Part shown: piece after piece, positions 4,045 to 41,614 of the stretch
Layout of the letters: the number at the start of each line of letters is the position of its first letter
Position numbering within the stretch: the stretch's first letter is position 1
DNA from: an uncultured Burkholderiales bacterium
Lineage (GTDB): Bacteria; Pseudomonadota; Gammaproteobacteria; Burkholderiales; Burkholderiaceae_C
Assembly: GCA_937873395.1 (NCBI GenBank)
Contig: CALMYH010000093.1
Span: 1-43,188 of the forward strand
Direction of reading: 5' to 3'
DNA: 43,188 nucleotides
Notes under the pieces: model-generated
Told to the model about the DNA's origin: nothing
What the model saw: only the letters and a program-made list of their open reading frames with translations
Databases searched by the model: none
Translations under genes and position numbers: made by a program

Positions 4045-4365
4045 ATGGACGACGGAAACAGCCCCTACGACCCCGAACTTGGTGACTGGCAGACGCTTAT
4101 CACGGTGTTCAGCCCCACCGAGGGCCTTCTGCTGCGCGGCCTGCTTCAGGCCGCCGGTGTGCCTGCGGCCGTGGCCGACGTGCATCTGGTGCAGACCCAC
4201 AGCCTGCTCGCACCGGCCATCCCGGTGCGGGTCCAGGTGCCCGAGCGTCGCCTGGCACGGGGCCAGGAGGTGCTGGCTGCCTTCGAGCGGGGCGAGTACG
4301 GTCTGGACGAGGCCACCTTTCAGGATCCTTTGAACGGGCCTCGGCATGGAGGAGACACCGGATGA
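4045..4365 (+). CDS. DUF2007-type putative signal-transducing small protein
   Basis: This 106-residue soluble protein contains a short alpha/beta segment (LITVFSPTEGLLLRGLLQAA, then VQVPERRLARGQEVLAAFE) resembling the DUF2007 family, small domains related in fold to PII-like or ACT-like proteins. No catalytic motif is visible. The stop codon overlaps the start of the following oxidoreductase gene as ATGA at 4362-4365, so the two are translationally coupled. No convincing Shine-Dalgarno motif precedes the ATG at 4045. The role is unknown; the family assignment is moderately sure. Confidence 0.65.
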   Translation: MDDGNSPYDPELGDWQTLITVFSPTEGLLLRGLLQAAGVPAAVADVHLVQTHSLLAPAIPVRVQVPERRLARGQEVLAAFERGEYGLDEATFQDPLNGPRHGGDTG

Positions 4366-8194: not shown

Positions 8195-9334
8195 ATGAAC
8201 CCTTCCGTGCTCGCTGTCGGCGCCTGGCTCAAGAACGCGGCCTGCCTCGTTCTCGATGGCCGAGCGCACTGGTCGCCAGTGCACGGCGACCTCAGCGATC
8301 CGGCGGCCTGTGCGGCGCTCGAAGCCTCGGTGCAGGCGCTGCTGCTGAAGGCAAGAATCGCGGGCGCGCCGGTGCAGGCCGTCGCGCACGACCTGCACCC
8401 CGACTTCTTCAGCACGCAACTGGCCATCACCACCGCCGACGCGCTGGGCGTGTCGGCCATCGGCGTTCAGCACCACCACGCACACCTGGCGGCGGTCATC
8501 GCCGAGCATGGCATCGAAGGACCGGTGATGGGGCTCGCGCTCGATGGGGTCGGGCTGGGCGCGGACGGCAAACCCTGGGGCGGCGAACTGCTCTGGCTCG
8601 ACGGCCCACGTTGGCAGCGCCTGGGCCACCTGCAGCCGCTGGCCCTGCCCGGTGGTGACCGCGCGGCGCGCGAGCCCTGGCGCATGGCGGCCAGTGCGCT
8701 GCACGCCATGGGGCAGGGCGATCAGATCGTTCCGCGTTTTGCTCTGGCGGTGGGAGAATCGGTGGCGGCGGGTGTGCGCCAGATGCTCGACAAGCACCTG
8801 AACTGCCCGATGACCAGCAGCGCCGGCCGCTGGTTCGATGCCGCCGCCGGCGCGCTGGGCCTGTGCCACCACCAACGGGACGAGGCCCAGGCGGCGATCG
8901 CGCTGGAGCAGGCCGCGGACCGTGCCCTGTCGCTTCGCCCAGACTTGCCTCCGCTGGCCGGTGCGGTGTTGCATGCCGACGGCCGCATCGATCTGCGCCC
9001 CGTGCTCGCCCAGCTGTTCGACGCCACCGATGCCGATGCGACGGCGGCCGGTTTCCACCTGTCGCTGGCCGATGCGCTGGCCGTGGCGCTCATCACCGCT
9101 GCGCGTCAACGCGGCATCCGAACCGCCGCTCTGGGCGGTGGCTGCTTCTTCAACCGCATCCTGCGTCAGCGCACCGTGCGCCGCCTGGTCGATGCGGGAC
9201 TCACTGTCTACCTGCCGGGTCCGCCCGGCTGTGGCGATGCCGGGCTGGCCGTCGGCCAGGCCTGGGTCGCCGCGCATCAACTCGCGAGACCCACAACACA
9301 ACCCCCCGCCCTGGAGACCGTCCCATGTGCCTAG
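8195..9334 (+). CDS. hypF: short-form carbamoyltransferase HypF (HypF1-like)
   Basis: HypF uses carbamoyl phosphate and ATP to make the cyanide ligands of the NiFe site by carbamoylating HypE. Only the C-terminal Kae1/TsaD-like carbamoyltransferase domain is present (379 residues against about 750 for full HypF). The HHHAH motif is at 93-97, followed by the ALDGVGLG nucleotide-site motif and GGCFFNR near the end. The N-terminal acylphosphatase domain, two zinc fingers and YrdC domain are absent. This matches HypF1 of Cupriavidus necator (394 residues), so it is probably a natural short form, not a pseudogene. The ATG is 13 bases after hypB, and the gene overlaps hypC by 10 bases. A full-length HypF may exist elsewhere in the genome. 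Confidence 0.88.
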   Translation: MNPSVLAVGAWLKNAACLVLDGRAHWSPVHGDLSDPAACAALEASVQALLLKARIAGAPVQAVAHDLHPDFFSTQLAITTADALGVSAIGVQHHHAHLAAVIAEHGIEGPVMGLALDGVGLGADGKPWGGELLWLDGPRWQRLGHLQPLALPGGDRAAREPWRMAASALHAMGQGDQIVPRFALAVGESVAAGVRQMLDKHLNCPMTSSAGRWFDAAAGALGLCHHQRDEAQAAIALEQAADRALSLRPDLPPLAGAVLHADGRIDLRPVLAQLFDATDADATAAGFHLSLADALAVALITAARQRGIRTAALGGGCFFNRILRQRTVRRLVDAGLTVYLPGPPGCGDAGLAVGQAWVAAHQLARPTTQPPALETVPCA

Positions 9335-9564
9335 CCATTCCCGCGCTGCTGGTGGAAAAGCGCCCCCACGACCAGGCCCTGGTCGAACTGGGCGGCATCC
9401 GCAAGCCCGTCTCCATCGCGCTGGTGCCCGAAGCCAAGGTCGGTGACTACGTCATCGTTCACGTGGGCCACGCGATCGGGGTGCTCGACCCCGAAGAAGC
9501 GCAGAAGACCCTGGCGATGTTTGCCGAGATGCAGGCGGTGCAAGCCGCGGAGGCCCAGTCATGA
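9325..9564 (+). CDS. hypC: hydrogenase maturation chaperone HypC
   Basis: This 79-residue protein starts MCLAIPALLV. Cys2, exposed after Met removal, is the conserved residue that carries the Fe(CN)2CO unit with HypD and contacts the HoxH precursor. The start lies inside the 3-prime end of hypF (10-base overlap) and the stop overlaps the hypD start as ATGA at 9561-9564, so translation of F, C and D is coupled. The length is normal for the family. Confidence 0.95.
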   Translation: MCLAIPALLVEKRPHDQALVELGGIRKPVSIALVPEAKVGDYVIVHVGHAIGVLDPEEAQKTLAMFAEMQAVQAAEAQS

Positions 9565-10895
9565 AATACATCGACGAATTCCGCGACGGCGCATTGGCGA
9601 AACACATCGCCGAACGCATCGCCGCCGAAGTGAGGCCCGACCACCCCTACCGCTTCATGGAATTCTGCGGCGGCCACACGCACGCGATCAGCCGCTACGG
9701 TGTGCTGGAACTGCTGCCGCCCAACGTGCGCATGATCCACGGCCCGGGCTGCCCGGTCTGCGTGCTGCCCATCGGTCGCGTGGACCTGGCGATCGAACTC
9801 GCCTTGCAGCACGACGTGATCCTCTGCACCTACGGCGACACCATGCGCGTGCCGGCCTCCGGCGGTCTTTCATTGACCAAGGCCAAGGCGCGCGGCGGCG
9901 ACATCCGCATGGTCTATTCGGCCGGCGACGCGCTGCAAATGGCGCGCAACCACCCGGACAAGCAGGTGGTGTTCTTCGCCATCGGTTTCGAAACCACCAC
10001 GCCGCCCACGGCGCTGGTGATCCGCGACGCGGCGCGCGAGGGGTTGAAGAACTTCAGCGTCATGTGCAGCCACGTGCTGACCCCGCCGGCGATCCGCGCG
10101 ATCCTCGATGGTGGCCGACCCAGCGCCGGGCCGCCCCAAGCTGGGTCAGCCCCCCCGGCGGGCAGCGACCACTGCGAAGCAGGGGAGCGTGGGGGTGATT
10201 GTTCGCACGAGACTGCCGAGATCGAAGGCTTCGTCGGCCCGGCGCACGTCAGTGTCGTCATCGGTTCCGACCCGTACGCGAAATTCGCTCAGGAGTACCA
10301 GAAGCCAGTCGTCATCGCCGGCTTCGAGCCGCTGGACGTGCTGCAGGCCATTCTGATGCTGGTGCGCCAGGTCAACGAAGGCCGCGCCGAGGTCGAGAAC
10401 GAGTTCACCCGCGCCGTCACGCCACAGGGCAACCTCAATGCCCAGGCGGTGATGGACGACGTCTTCGAGCTGCGCGAGGCCTTCGAGTGGCGCGGCCTGG
10501 GCACCATGCCGCTGTCGGCGCTGCAGATCCGCGCCAAGCACCGCGACCACGACGCCGAACACCGCTTCAACCTGGGCTACCGCAGCGTGCCCGACAACAA
10601 GGCCTGCGAATGCGGCGCCATCCTGCGCGGCGTGAAAGAGCCGCGCGACTGCAAGATCTTCGGCACCGTCTGCACACCCGAGAACCCCATCGGTTCCTGC
10701 ATGGTCTCCAGCGAGGGCGCCTGCGCCGCGCACTACACCTACGGACGCTTCCGCGATGTACAGGTGGTCACCCCCTGCGCCGCTTCGCGGCTTCCCCCTC
10801 TCTCGCCTTCGGCGGGAGGGGGACGGCACCAGAGGCCCGGCGAAGCCGGTTCCTCGGTGCCCCTGGATGGGGCGTCTGCGGTCATGGAAAGTTGA
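9561..10895 (+). CDS. hypD: hydrogenase maturation protein HypD carrying two repeat-derived segments
   Basis: HypD is the iron-sulfur scaffold on which HypC/HypE assemble Fe(CN)2CO. The essential motifs are present: FCGGHTHA with Cys36, GPGCPVC with Cys64 and Cys67, and the C-terminal [4Fe-4S] cysteines in ACECG, RDCKIFGTVC and GSCM. The protein is 444 residues where the family has about 370-385. The excess has two sources. Residues about 184-213 (SAGPPQAGSAPPAGSD and following) are encoded by a palindromic repeat inserted between AIRAILD and the conserved GFVGPAHVS. The last 45 residues after GRFRD are encoded by a second repeat that runs to the stop. Both keep the frame open. Whether the product is active cannot be judged from sequence. 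hypE starts 1 base after the stop. Confidence 0.9.
   Translation: MKYIDEFRDGALAKHIAERIAAEVRPDHPYRFMEFCGGHTHAISRYGVLELLPPNVRMIHGPGCPVCVLPIGRVDLAIELALQHDVILCTYGDTMRVPASGGLSLTKAKARGGDIRMVYSAGDALQMARNHPDKQVVFFAIGFETTTPPTALVIRDAAREGLKNFSVMCSHVLTPPAIRAILDGGRPSAGPPQAGSAPPAGSDHCEAGERGGDCSHETAEIEGFVGPAHVSVVIGSDPYAKFAQEYQKPVVIAGFEPLDVLQAILMLVRQVNEGRAEVENEFTRAVTPQGNLNAQAVMDDVFELREAFEWRGLGTMPLSALQIRAKHRDHDAEHRFNLGYRSVPDNKACECGAILRGVKEPRDCKIFGTVCTPENPIGSCMVSSEGACAAHYTYGRFRDVQVVTPCAASRLPPLSPSAGGGRHQRPGEAGSSVPLDGASAVMES
10118..10198 (+). repeat. GC-rich palindromic repeat, copy 1 (inside hypD)
   Basis: It shares the core GCGCCGGGCCGCCCCAAG, CCCCC..GGGCAGCGACC and AGCGTGGGGG with the copy at 40980-41055 in the same orientation. 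I estimate about 80% identity by eye over about 75 bases. It is inserted in frame in hypD. Confidence 0.75.
10771..10873 (-). repeat. GC-rich palindromic repeat, copy 2 (3-prime end of hypD)
   Basis: It begins CCCCCTGCGCCGCTTCGCG, identical in its first 19 bases to the start of the copy between hoxY and hoxH. A strong internal hairpin is formed by CCCCCTC, TCTCGCCTTCGGCG and GGAGGGGG. It lies in the orientation opposite to copies 1, 4 and 5 and supplies the last 40 or so codons and probably the stop region of hypD. Confidence 0.65.
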
Positions 10896-10896
10896 C

Positions 10897-11955
10897 ATGA
10901 AAAAGACCTACACTCGCCCGCTGGACATCAGACACGGCCGCATCGACATGGGCCATGGCGCTGGCGGCAAGGCCGCAGCGCAGCTGATCGAGGAGCTGTT
11001 CCTGCCCGCGCTGGACAACCCCTTCCTGCGCCAGGGCGACGACGGTGCGGCGTTGCCCCTGCCGGTGTTCCCCGAAGGCCCAGGGCAACTGGTGATGGCG
11101 ACCGACGGCCACGTGGTCTCGCCCCTCTTCTTCCCCGGTGGCGACCTCGGCTGCCTGGCGGTGCACGGCACGGTCAACGACGTCGCCATGATGGGTGCGC
11201 AGCCGCTGTACCTGAGCGCCAGCTTCATCATCGAAGAGGGTTACCCGCTGGCCGACCTGCAGCGCATCGTGCAGAGCATGGGCGCGGCCGCGCGCGAGGC
11301 GGGTGTGCCGGTGGTCACCGGTGACACCAAGGTGGTGGAGCAGGGCAAGGGCGACGGCGTGTTCATCAGCACCACCGGCGTGGGCGTGTTGCCACCGGGT
11401 GTCGTGGTCAGCGGCCGCAACGCGCGGGCGGGTGACGTGATCCTGCTGTCGGGCACCATCGGCGACCACGGCGTGGCGGTGCTGTCGCAGCGCGAATCGC
11501 TGGCCTTCGAAACCACGATCGTGAGCGACACCGCCGCGCTGCACACCCTGGTGGCCGACCTGATGACCGCCGCCCCCGGCGCGGTGCGCGTGCTGCGCGA
11601 CCCCACGCGCGGCGGCCTGGCGACCACGCTCAACGAAATCGCGCGCCAGTCCGGCGTCGGCATGCGGCTGCAGGAGGCGGCCATTCCCGTCAAGCCACAG
11701 GTGGACGCAGCCTGTGAACTGCTGGGTCTGGACCCGCTGTACGTGGCCAACGAAGGCAAGCTGATCGCCATCGTCGCGCCCGAAGCGGCCGAAGCCGCGC
11801 TGGCCGCGCTGCGCGCCCACCCGCTGGGTGCAGACGCCGCACGCATCGGCGAGGTCACCACCGACCCGCATCACTTCGTGCAGCTGGATACCCGATTCGG
11901 TGGCCGACGCGTGGTGGACTGGCTCAGCGCTGAACAGTTGCCACGCATCTGCTGA
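10897..11955 (+). CDS. hypE: hydrogenase maturation protein HypE
   Basis: HypE dehydrates the thiocarboxamide on its C-terminal cysteine to a thiocyanate, the source of the cyanide ligands, using ATP. The 352-residue product ends in PRIC, with the acceptor Cys352 as the last residue. The N-terminal DMGHGAGGKAAAQLI motif is the PurM/SelD-type nucleotide loop and ATDGHVVSPLFFPGGDLG follows. The start at 10897 has GGAAAG about 6 bases upstream; a longer frame beginning at 10756 only reads through the repeat at the hypD end. It lies 1 base after hypD and about 100 bases before hoxF. Confidence 0.95.
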   Translation: MKKTYTRPLDIRHGRIDMGHGAGGKAAAQLIEELFLPALDNPFLRQGDDGAALPLPVFPEGPGQLVMATDGHVVSPLFFPGGDLGCLAVHGTVNDVAMMGAQPLYLSASFIIEEGYPLADLQRIVQSMGAAAREAGVPVVTGDTKVVEQGKGDGVFISTTGVGVLPPGVVVSGRNARAGDVILLSGTIGDHGVAVLSQRESLAFETTIVSDTAALHTLVADLMTAAPGAVRVLRDPTRGGLATTLNEIARQSGVGMRLQEAAIPVKPQVDAACELLGLDPLYVANEGKLIAIVAPEAAEAALAALRAHPLGADAARIGEVTTDPHHFVQLDTRFGGRRVVDWLSAEQLPRIC

Positions 11956-15123: not shown

Positions 15124-15200
15124 ACCCCCCTGCGCCGCTTCGCGTCTTCCCCCCAAGGGGACGCAGCCTGTGGCCGGGCCAAGCCCGTTCCACGGCTGCC
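15124..15200 (-). repeat. GC-rich palindromic repeat, copy 3 (between hoxY and hoxH)
   Basis: It begins with the same CCCCCTGCGCCGCTTCGCG as copy 2, continues TCTTCCCCCCAAGGGGACGC and ends in GGGCCAAGCCCG. It fills most of the hoxY-hoxH gap, so it should form a hairpin in the mRNA between the two hydrogenase-module subunits and could affect their relative expression. Confidence 0.7.
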
Positions 15201-15221
15201 CCGCCACGGAGGTACTCGGAC

Positions 15222-40495: not shown

Positions 40496-41614
40496 TCAGT
40501 CGCCGAAGCCGCGCAACAGCTGCCGGGTGATGTCGCCCGCGGGCAGCGCCTGACAGCCGCTGGCGTTCTGGCCCGACCAGAGGGGCGAGAAGTCGCCACG
40601 GCCCTGTTGTTCCCAATGGGCGCGCAGGGGGGCGATGGCCGCAGTGGCGGTGGGGAAGGCGGGCGCGGCCGGGTTCAATGGACCGAGTTCGCGCATCACG
40701 CGGTTGACGATGCCGCGCGCTGGCCGGCCGGAAAACAGCGTGGTCAGGGCGGTGTGTCGGGCCGTCTCGCTTTGCAGTGCGGCCCGGTGGATGGCGCTGG
40801 TGCTGGCTTCGTCGCTGCACAGGTAGGCGGTGCCCACCTGCACACCCGACGCGCCCAGTGCCAGCGCCGCGCGCACACCCGTCGCATCGGCAATGCCGCC
40901 AGCGGCGATCACCGGGACCTGCACCGCAGCCACGACCTGCGGCAGCAGGGCGAAGAGACCCATTTGGGACGTGAGCAGATCCGGCGCCGGGCCGCCCCAA
41001 GCCGGATCAGCCCCCTCGGGGGGCAGCGACCCGCGCAGCGGCGGAGCGTGGGGGCGCAGGAACATGCCGCGGTGGCCGCCGGCTTCAAGGCCTTGCGCGA
41101 TCACCGCATCAACACCTTGTGCCTCCAGCCACAGCGCCTCGTCCACCGTGGTGGCCGACGACAGCACCACGCTGCCCCAGGCCTTGACCCGGGCCAGCAG
41201 GTCGGGTGCGGGCAGACCGAAATGGAAGCTGACGATGGGCGGCCGGAAGGGCTCCACCACGTCGGCCACGGCGTGGCTGAAGGGCACGCGGCCGGCGCCG
41301 GCCGGCACGGCATTGATGTCCAGTCCGGCCTCCGCGTAGAACGGTGACAGGGCTTCGCGCCAGCGGGCTTCGCGTGCGGGATCGGGAAGAGGCGGCGTGT
41401 GGCAGAAGAAGTTGACGTTCCACGGGCGGTCGGTGCCGTTTGAGAGCGTCTGCAGTTCCTGCGTCAGCGCCTCGGGCGACAGCATGGCCGCGGGCAGGGC
41501 ACCGATCCCGCCAGCAGCGCAAACCGACAGGGCCAGTGCCGAGCCTTGTGATCCGGCCATGGGGGCCTGCAGCAGCAGGCGGTCGACGTTCAGGCGTTGG
41601 GCGAGCGAGTTCAT
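40496..41614 (-). CDS. nitronate monooxygenase-like flavoprotein with repeat-derived insert
   Basis: This 372-residue TIM-barrel FMN enzyme of the NMO/2-nitropropane dioxygenase family has LLQAPMAGSQGSALALSV at the N-terminus, WNVNFFCHTPPL, GLEAGGHRGMFL, VIAAGGIADATGVRAALALG and GVQVGTAYLCSDEA with the FMN phosphate site. These enzymes oxidise alkyl nitronates. Residues about 187-212 (RPHAPPLRGSLPPEGADPAW and following) are encoded by a palindromic repeat between GMFL and the conserved MGLFALLPQ. The frame stays open. The likely uninterrupted length is about 346. Confidence 0.87.
   Translation of the reverse strand: MNSLAQRLNVDRLLLQAPMAGSQGSALALSVCAAGGIGALPAAMLSPEALTQELQTLSNGTDRPWNVNFFCHTPPLPDPAREARWREALSPFYAEAGLDINAVPAGAGRVPFSHAVADVVEPFRPPIVSFHFGLPAPDLLARVKAWGSVVLSSATTVDEALWLEAQGVDAVIAQGLEAGGHRGMFLRPHAPPLRGSLPPEGADPAWGGPAPDLLTSQMGLFALLPQVVAAVQVPVIAAGGIADATGVRAALALGASGVQVGTAYLCSDEASTSAIHRAALQSETARHTALTTLFSGRPARGIVNRVMRELGPLNPAAPAFPTATAAIAPLRAHWEQQGRGDFSPLWSGQNASGCQALPAGDITRQLLRGFGD
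40980..41055 (+). repeat. GC-rich palindromic repeat, copy 5 (inside the nitronate monooxygenase gene)
   Basis: It has the same orientation and same core as copy 1: GCGCCGGGCCGCCCCAAG, CAGCCCCC..GGGCAGCGACC and GGAGCGTGGGGG. The host gene is on the opposite strand, yet remains open through it. Confidence 0.75.

Follow-up and report, generated by a model that had tools for sequence, protein, structure and literature searches.

The window, i.e., the whole 43,188-nt stretch of DNA that was analysed here, carries a hyp operon and has Hydrogenophaga and other Comamonadaceae as its relatives. Its own genome (G000) comprises 3.7 Mb in 183 contigs, with a contamination of 0.85%. The neighbours of hypD match HypA, HypB, HypF, HypC, and HypE, and beyond the hyp genes, the matches are to subunits of the hydrogenase or NADH-dehydrogenase type and to a maturation protease. 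For the window hypF (8195-9334), the match covers no more than the C-terminal half of the HypF model (positions 390-740 of 741). HypD acts in the maturation of [NiFe]-hydrogenases and is not known to be required for viability. In the window, HypD is matched by the PF01924 profile in two stretches that flank an insert (E 8e-150), by the TIGR00075 profile on either side of it (E 5e-139), and by the structure PDB 2z1d, to which query residues 6-185 and 221-395 were aligned with the insert between them. In an alignment of 34 sequences, C36, C64, C67, C349, C351, C364, C371, C380, and C388 are invariant, in line with the earlier observation that the catalytic cysteines are intact. Both the profile matches and the conserved cysteines place the protein in the HypD family. 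The same alignment contains no invariant column from L182 to G223, with T218 nearly invariant, and the position of the insert in this alignment suggests that it lies in a surface loop. The genes and repeats discussed are collected in Table 1.

Table 1. Positions of hypD, the nitronate monooxygenase gene, and their repeat features in the window
Feature	Position	Strand	Remarks
hypD with insert and repeat-derived tail	9561-10895	+	ORF, 444 codons; PF01924, TIGR00075
E1 repeat in hypD, core read as RPSAGPPQAGSAPPAGSDHCEAGERGG	10114-10196	+	net insertion of 84 nt = 28 codons relative to empty sites
Stem A of the hypD E1 copy, arms GACCCAGC (10117-10124) and GCTGGGTC (10140-10147)	10117-10147	+	variable, covarying stem
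Tract resembling an L004-type hypD-hypE junction	10758-10902	+	42/45 informative sites; sliding identity
E2 repeat read as the HypD C-terminus	10770-10866	+	fold z -3.1 (99-nt stretch)
Second E2 copy of the window	15126-15202	+	between genes; 9 nt past the stop of a hydrogenase small-subunit-like gene upstream
Nitronate monooxygenase gene with E1 in frame	40496-41614	-	373 codons including stop; PF03060, residues 10-367
Other E1 copy of the window, lying antisense to nitronate monooxygenase and translated in its frame	40976-41055	+	same flanking residues in G058

The sequence-only reading had proposed that HypD contains an in-frame repeat insert and ends in a second repeat. This was borne out, i.e., there is a net insert of 28 codons, and 45 residues follow the motif GRFRD. 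The two stretches had been taken for one kind of repeat, but they belong to two different families, here referred to as E1 (the insert) and E2 (the tail), and two separate in-frame arrivals of palindromic repeats in HypD are supported. Copies of both had also been placed between genes of the window; this holds for E2, but not for E1, whose second copy lies inside the reading frame of nitronate monooxygenase.

The distance from ILDG to GFVGPAH is 126 nt in the window vs 42 nt in G038, G058, L002, and G046, and 48 nt in G053. Among the 81 HypD listed (the window and 80 public loci), only the window and L001 carry the insert, the hypD of L001 being identical to that of the G059 locus. With the insert missing in 79 of the 80 public loci and the tail in 78 of 80 (among the matches listed), these segments are not what most homologues have, and the insert was rejected as a common HypD segment. 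Within the genus, 13 of 67 genomes matched HypD with an E value of 1e-100 or lower; six of these (G000, G006, G063, G059, G020, and G026, the last cut by a contig end) carry the insert and seven lack it. Because the insert is found in six genomes, an assembly error, which had been considered earlier, was rejected. In a tree of 15 HypD cores, the insert-bearing genes stand in two places and two changes are needed, so loss or transfer took place; a single vertical insertion does not suffice to explain this 15-row tree, in which the HypD with the insert are not monophyletic. In other hyp operons (L001, L008, and L018; around 2700-2990), one to three E1 copies are located immediately upstream of hypD.

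Searches of the own genome, with the hypD copy as the query for E1, returned at least 56 matches to E1 and at least 41 to E2; these are lower bounds, since 40 of 94 (E1) and 40 of 76 (E2) candidates were scored in these first searches. A core pattern of E1 gave 62 matches in the own genome vs none for a reversed control pattern. It is present in 64 of the 67 genus genomes; of 250 genomes sampled from the family, 71 contain it (49 of 126 genera), with at most 13 copies per genome outside the genus in this sample. E1 units are often arranged in tandem, and the modal spacing is 84 nt, which accounts for 38 of the 82 intergenic spacings measured in five genomes. Divisibility by three applies to 43 of these 82 intergenic spacings and to 4/4 in-gene spacings. 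An array in L273 (G004; 985-1532) has a spacing of 118-119 nt, not 84. The E1 consensus starts with CGGATCCGGC, finishes with GTGGGGGC, and is free of stop codons in all three plus frames and in two of the three minus frames.

E1 qualifies as a palindromic hairpin by the covariation of its stem A, with a total stability that is not above that of shuffles. Stem A, as read from the consensus, has 81.0% of its cells paired over 157 units, compared to a mean of 62.7 and a maximum of 64.7 for 200 shuffles and to at most 43.3% for slid versions; 264 cells are changed on both sides, many of the units being related copies from arrays. Stems B and C are nearly invariant (96.0 and 97.8% paired), with stem C slightly above its shuffles and stem B no better than its own. 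RNAalifold did not recover stem A on E1, and four E1 copies were not more stable in fold energy than their shuffles (z -0.57, -1.16, -0.89, and +0.63, the last for the GcvT copy, which folds worse than the shuffle mean). An origin of the stem arms from the target site was dropped, since the GcvT insertion shows none by eye. As regards a target-site duplication, the HrpA insertion in G058 is flanked, again by eye, by CCGGC (left) and CCAGC (right), and the HypD and GcvT sites show no clear-cut duplication. A known structured RNA was also rejected, as neither E1 nor E2 gave a gathering-score match to Rfam 15 in 10 sources (79,455 bases). The sole Rfam matches were two xanthine (NMT1) riboswitches in L094:131-330, which lie in opposite orientation about 90 nt apart.

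For the placement of the repeats, genes were called by codon usage, E1 and E2 copies of fewer than 45 aligned nt were discarded, and copies with an identical context were merged; the loci L158 and L166 (G000), L242 and L251 (G006), and L289 (G004) were fetched for E1 and held no kept copy. In the own genome, 65 E1 copies were classified, of which 44 are intergenic, 18 are located in 14 genes, and three overlap a gene end. Twenty of the 44 intergenic copies end 0-9 nt from the stop of a convergent gene, and the next gaps, of 90-97 nt, fit second units of arrays. Single copies are hosted by HypD, nitronate monooxygenase, MetX, acyl-CoA dehydrogenase, Rep, CobQ, GcvT, MeaB, CobO, and an OHCU decarboxylase/amidohydrolase fusion, and two copies each by HrpA, an M20 peptidase, and an acyl-CoA synthetase; PutA has two E1 sites on two contigs and was counted as one gene. 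A family profile spans or flanks E1 in 13 of the 14 host genes, e.g., PutA is matched at 221-421 and then at 424-540, and HrpA up to 606 and then from 604, while the segment of the M20 peptidase that precedes the insert had no family match. Fifteen of the in-gene copies run along the gene and three against it. The phenomenon is thus wider than first noted, with more than a dozen enzyme genes carrying E1 in frame; the 13 host genes other than hypD had escaped the sequence-only reading.

With the same gene caller, in-gene E1 copies were found in G058 (14 of 88) and G006 (5 of 28), and none among 17 copies in G005 and 64 in G004 (0/81 together); copies overlapping a gene end numbered three in G058, one in G006, two in G005, and one in G004. 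The places covered were 20 of 23 neighbourhoods in G004, 24 of 25 pattern places in G006 (its HypD copy excluded), and 17 of 17 in G005. Because the in-gene share differs between genomes treated with the same caller, in-gene copies are a trait of some lineages and not simply a product of the caller. In G058, 10 of the 13 E1 host genes were scanned for families and nine matched, including an FtsY-like SRP54 GTPase, a RecQ-type helicase (two copies), biotin carboxylase, and GlnE; host L395 had no family match. The in-gene copies of G006 are defined by the gene calls.

For HypD, GcvT, and HrpA, E1 is an insertion relative to empty sites in relatives. The GcvT site is filled in G000 alone among the 30 loci read, with a net 84 nt. 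For HrpA, where 11 of 30 loci were read, the site holds 168 nt (two units) in G000, 84 nt in G058, and 90 nt in G006, and is empty in the eight others; G010 HrpA has an unbroken match across the site. At the HrpA, PutA, and nitronate monooxygenase sites, the flanking residues are equal or nearly so in G000 and G058.

E2 is a repeat family distinct from E1 and has a different placement. Of its 38 copies classified in the own genome, all lie between genes (37) except the hypD copy, which lies in a gene; 29 of the 38 start at most 14 nt after a codirectional stop. Two E2 copies are more stable than their shuffles (z -3.1 and -5.6). After GRFRD, where the window HypD continues for 45 residues, 11-12 residues are present in four complete insert-bearing relatives and 9-16 in the other relatives read. 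The E2 tail was found in 3 of the 81 HypD (among the matches listed), namely, in the window, L004, and L006, with the L004 locus being identical to the G044 locus. The tail of L006 (Tepidimonas; about 4119-4335) comprises 73 residues, is 28 codons (84 nt) longer than that of the window, and has an additional GC-rich stretch ahead of its main E2 part.

The tract around the window tail that resembles L004 has flanks that are mostly G006-like, i.e., 59 of 66 informative sites upstream and 26 of 40 downstream, with 7 of 66 and 14 of 40 being L004-like. Informative sites within E2 are biased, as G006 has no E2; in the part of the tract outside E2, 16 of 19 informative sites are L004-like, in an alignment that is uncertain where gene ends differ in length. 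As the non-repeat flanks, too, are L004-like, a separate E2 insertion in the lineage of the window seems less likely. The HypD tail is most simply accounted for by a short recombination tract (about 145 bp) that is similar to another hyp lineage; we infer the direction of its transfer and the manner in which the hypD stop was lost.

For E1, insertion relative to empty sites, continuity of the reading frame, host genes of known protein families, and the lack of amino-acid constraint were all observed. We infer that E1 is mobile and has a means of moving, and consider it likely, with good confidence, that the following account holds as a whole. E1 would be a mobile, hairpin-forming repeat that is normally intergenic and often sits immediately past a stop codon. 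When landing in a gene, it would usually add about 28 Pro/Gly/Ala/Ser/Arg-rich residues without breaking the protein, because the unit is mostly 84 nt, a multiple of three, and is stop-free in all but one of the six frames. In some Hydrogenophaga lineages (G000, G058, and G006 of the five examined), copies whose landing site was a variable protein stretch appear to have been kept, and the HypD insert would be such a tolerated, unconstrained segment that was not selected as a peptide. E2 would be a different element, normally a hairpin past a stop, that was brought into hypD by a short recombination tract and is translated there because no stop precedes it. A bolder reading, to which we give somewhat less than an even chance, is that E1 uses genes as a habitat by means of a stop-poor 28-codon unit with its own covarying stem, and that in part of Hydrogenophaga its niche has widened from the 3' ends of genes into housekeeping enzymes, with tandem multiplication and passage between species by short recombination tracts.

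How the HypD insert has changed over time bears on the alternatives. Over 10 pairs of five complete inserts, pN/pS is 1.24, compared to 0.12 for the HypD core, while pS is 0.096 vs 0.341. As a protein segment, the insert thus evolves neutrally, and as DNA it changes slowly; since pS is low, its DNA is not simply drifting, and the reason could be a constraint on structure, gene conversion, or a recent spread. In the 20 codons on each side of the insert, pS is 0.23 and 0.23 between the two insert-bearing groups, vs 0.34 and 0.36 when empty sisters are compared to the second insert-bearing group, which is a weak hint of spread by short tracts. The low pS, together with the stem A covariation, would fit a constraint on the nucleic acid, under which E1 hairpins act in the transcript or the DNA (e.g., in 3'-end processing, the nucleoid, or recombination) and the peptide is a by-product. 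However, repair within the palindrome or gene conversion may produce covariation as well, E1 overall folds no better than shuffles (the GcvT copy in particular), and seven of 13 genus HypD manage without the insert, so we hold this alternative to be possible but unlikely.

Much less probable is that HypD has come to use the repeat-derived segments functionally, e.g., as a linker or an interaction segment. The sequence-only reading had raised such a domestication next to mere tolerance, and the retention of the insert in six of the 13 genomes of the genus that match HypD strongly and its slowly changing DNA could be read in its favour. Against it stand the unconstrained amino-acid changes, the near relatives without the insert, the presence of the tail in only three of the 81 HypD listed, and the variation of E1 frames and orientations from gene to gene; since other genes read the repeat in various frames and in either orientation, no peptide is conserved among them. 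Domestication is therefore not supported, whereas tolerated insertion is well supported, with the core of HypD under purifying selection and the insert-bearing proteins probably functional. A sequencing or binning error, or chance open frames across two adjacent genes, is hardly credible: although the own genome is fragmented and slightly contaminated, several E1 copies lie at contig ends, the E2 tail occurs on a window-type HypD core in one genome only, and the PutA counted twice on two contig ends may be one gene, the HypD, HrpA, PutA, and nitronate monooxygenase insertions are found again in other genomes at the same residues, the same caller finds no in-gene copy in G004 and G005, and in 13 of the 14 own hosts, both sides of the insert match one and the same family.

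Tolerated insertion of E1 resembles what is described for palindromic elements that are read in frame in Rickettsia and Wolbachia (RPE and WPE; PMC10969869, PMC3767692, and PMC4224334, in the parts of these papers that were available). Judged by description and behaviour, E1 appears to work like RPE: it is palindromic, in frame in unrelated genes (18 of 65 copies, in 14 genes), shares sites between orthologues, and is also intergenic. In contrast to RPE and WPE, E1 is mostly 84 nt in length (84 in HypD and GcvT, 84 or 90 per unit in HrpA) rather than 100-150, is GC-rich, has a host outside Rickettsiales, lies in many copies directly past stop codons, and shows tandem in-gene copies, a variable covarying stem, and both orientations. 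The available part of a review of MITEs (PMC10969869) lists ERIC, BOX, QMITE1, and others as readable as protein parts, and E1 is similar to these as a small non-autonomous repeat; however, its ends are, by eye, not inverted copies of each other, so that the terminal inverted repeats of MITEs are lacking. PMC2755013, in the part available, treats only CRISPR. In the titles and abstracts of open-licence papers, no literature on such in-frame elements in Burkholderiales was found.

REP and REPIN elements are short hairpins by gene ends that are present in many copies and often form arrays. E1 and E2 are like them in being short, multi-copy hairpins by gene ends, often in arrays, but E1 enters reading frames as well. 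The PF01797 profile (RAYT, Y1 transposase) is matched in 56 of the 67 genus genomes and in neither G000 nor G058, the two that are richest in the E1 pattern, and none of the eight RAYT loci read (of 58 places listed) holds E1 or E2; mobilisation of E1 by RAYT is thus unsupported. MIRU-type repeats are located at stop-start junctions in mycobacterial operons and lengthen the upstream reading frame. At the hypD-hypE junction, E2 is comparable to MIRU by position, not by sequence, in extending the upstream frame of an operon, whereas 29 of the 38 E2 copies follow an intact codirectional stop.

Hydrogenophaga is a free-living genus. High-frequency in-frame palindromic elements are described, in the literature available in part, for Rickettsia and Wolbachia, and the same outcome is met here in a betaproteobacterial genus that is GC-rich. 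As close species, tandem copies, remnants, and empty sites are available for comparison, the emergence of lasting protein segments from selfish repeats becomes directly testable. Annotators should be aware that Pro/Gly/Ser-rich stretches of Hydrogenophaga proteins are in some cases repeat DNA and not domains. If the use of genes as a habitat were true, protein-coding palindromes would have arisen a second time, independently and outside the intracellular Rickettsiales, and E1 would be a live source from which new protein segments emerge.

The MetX loop provides a further view of E1 in different species. The motif YRYSTQDVEFQIESYLRYQ is present in 26 of 30 MetX loci, and these 26 were read. In seven of them the loop contains a recognisable E1, namely, in G000, G033, G027 (shortened), G019 and G035 (reversed), G046 (two units), and G056 (three units); 15 loci have a 46-residue loop without E1, and four have other longer loops, one of which (G030) shows a weak E1 match (E 0.003). 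Across the MetX loci of the genus (L321-L350), the loop before this motif is a hotspot for E1, which differs between species in the number of units (one to three) and in orientation and is shortened in one case.
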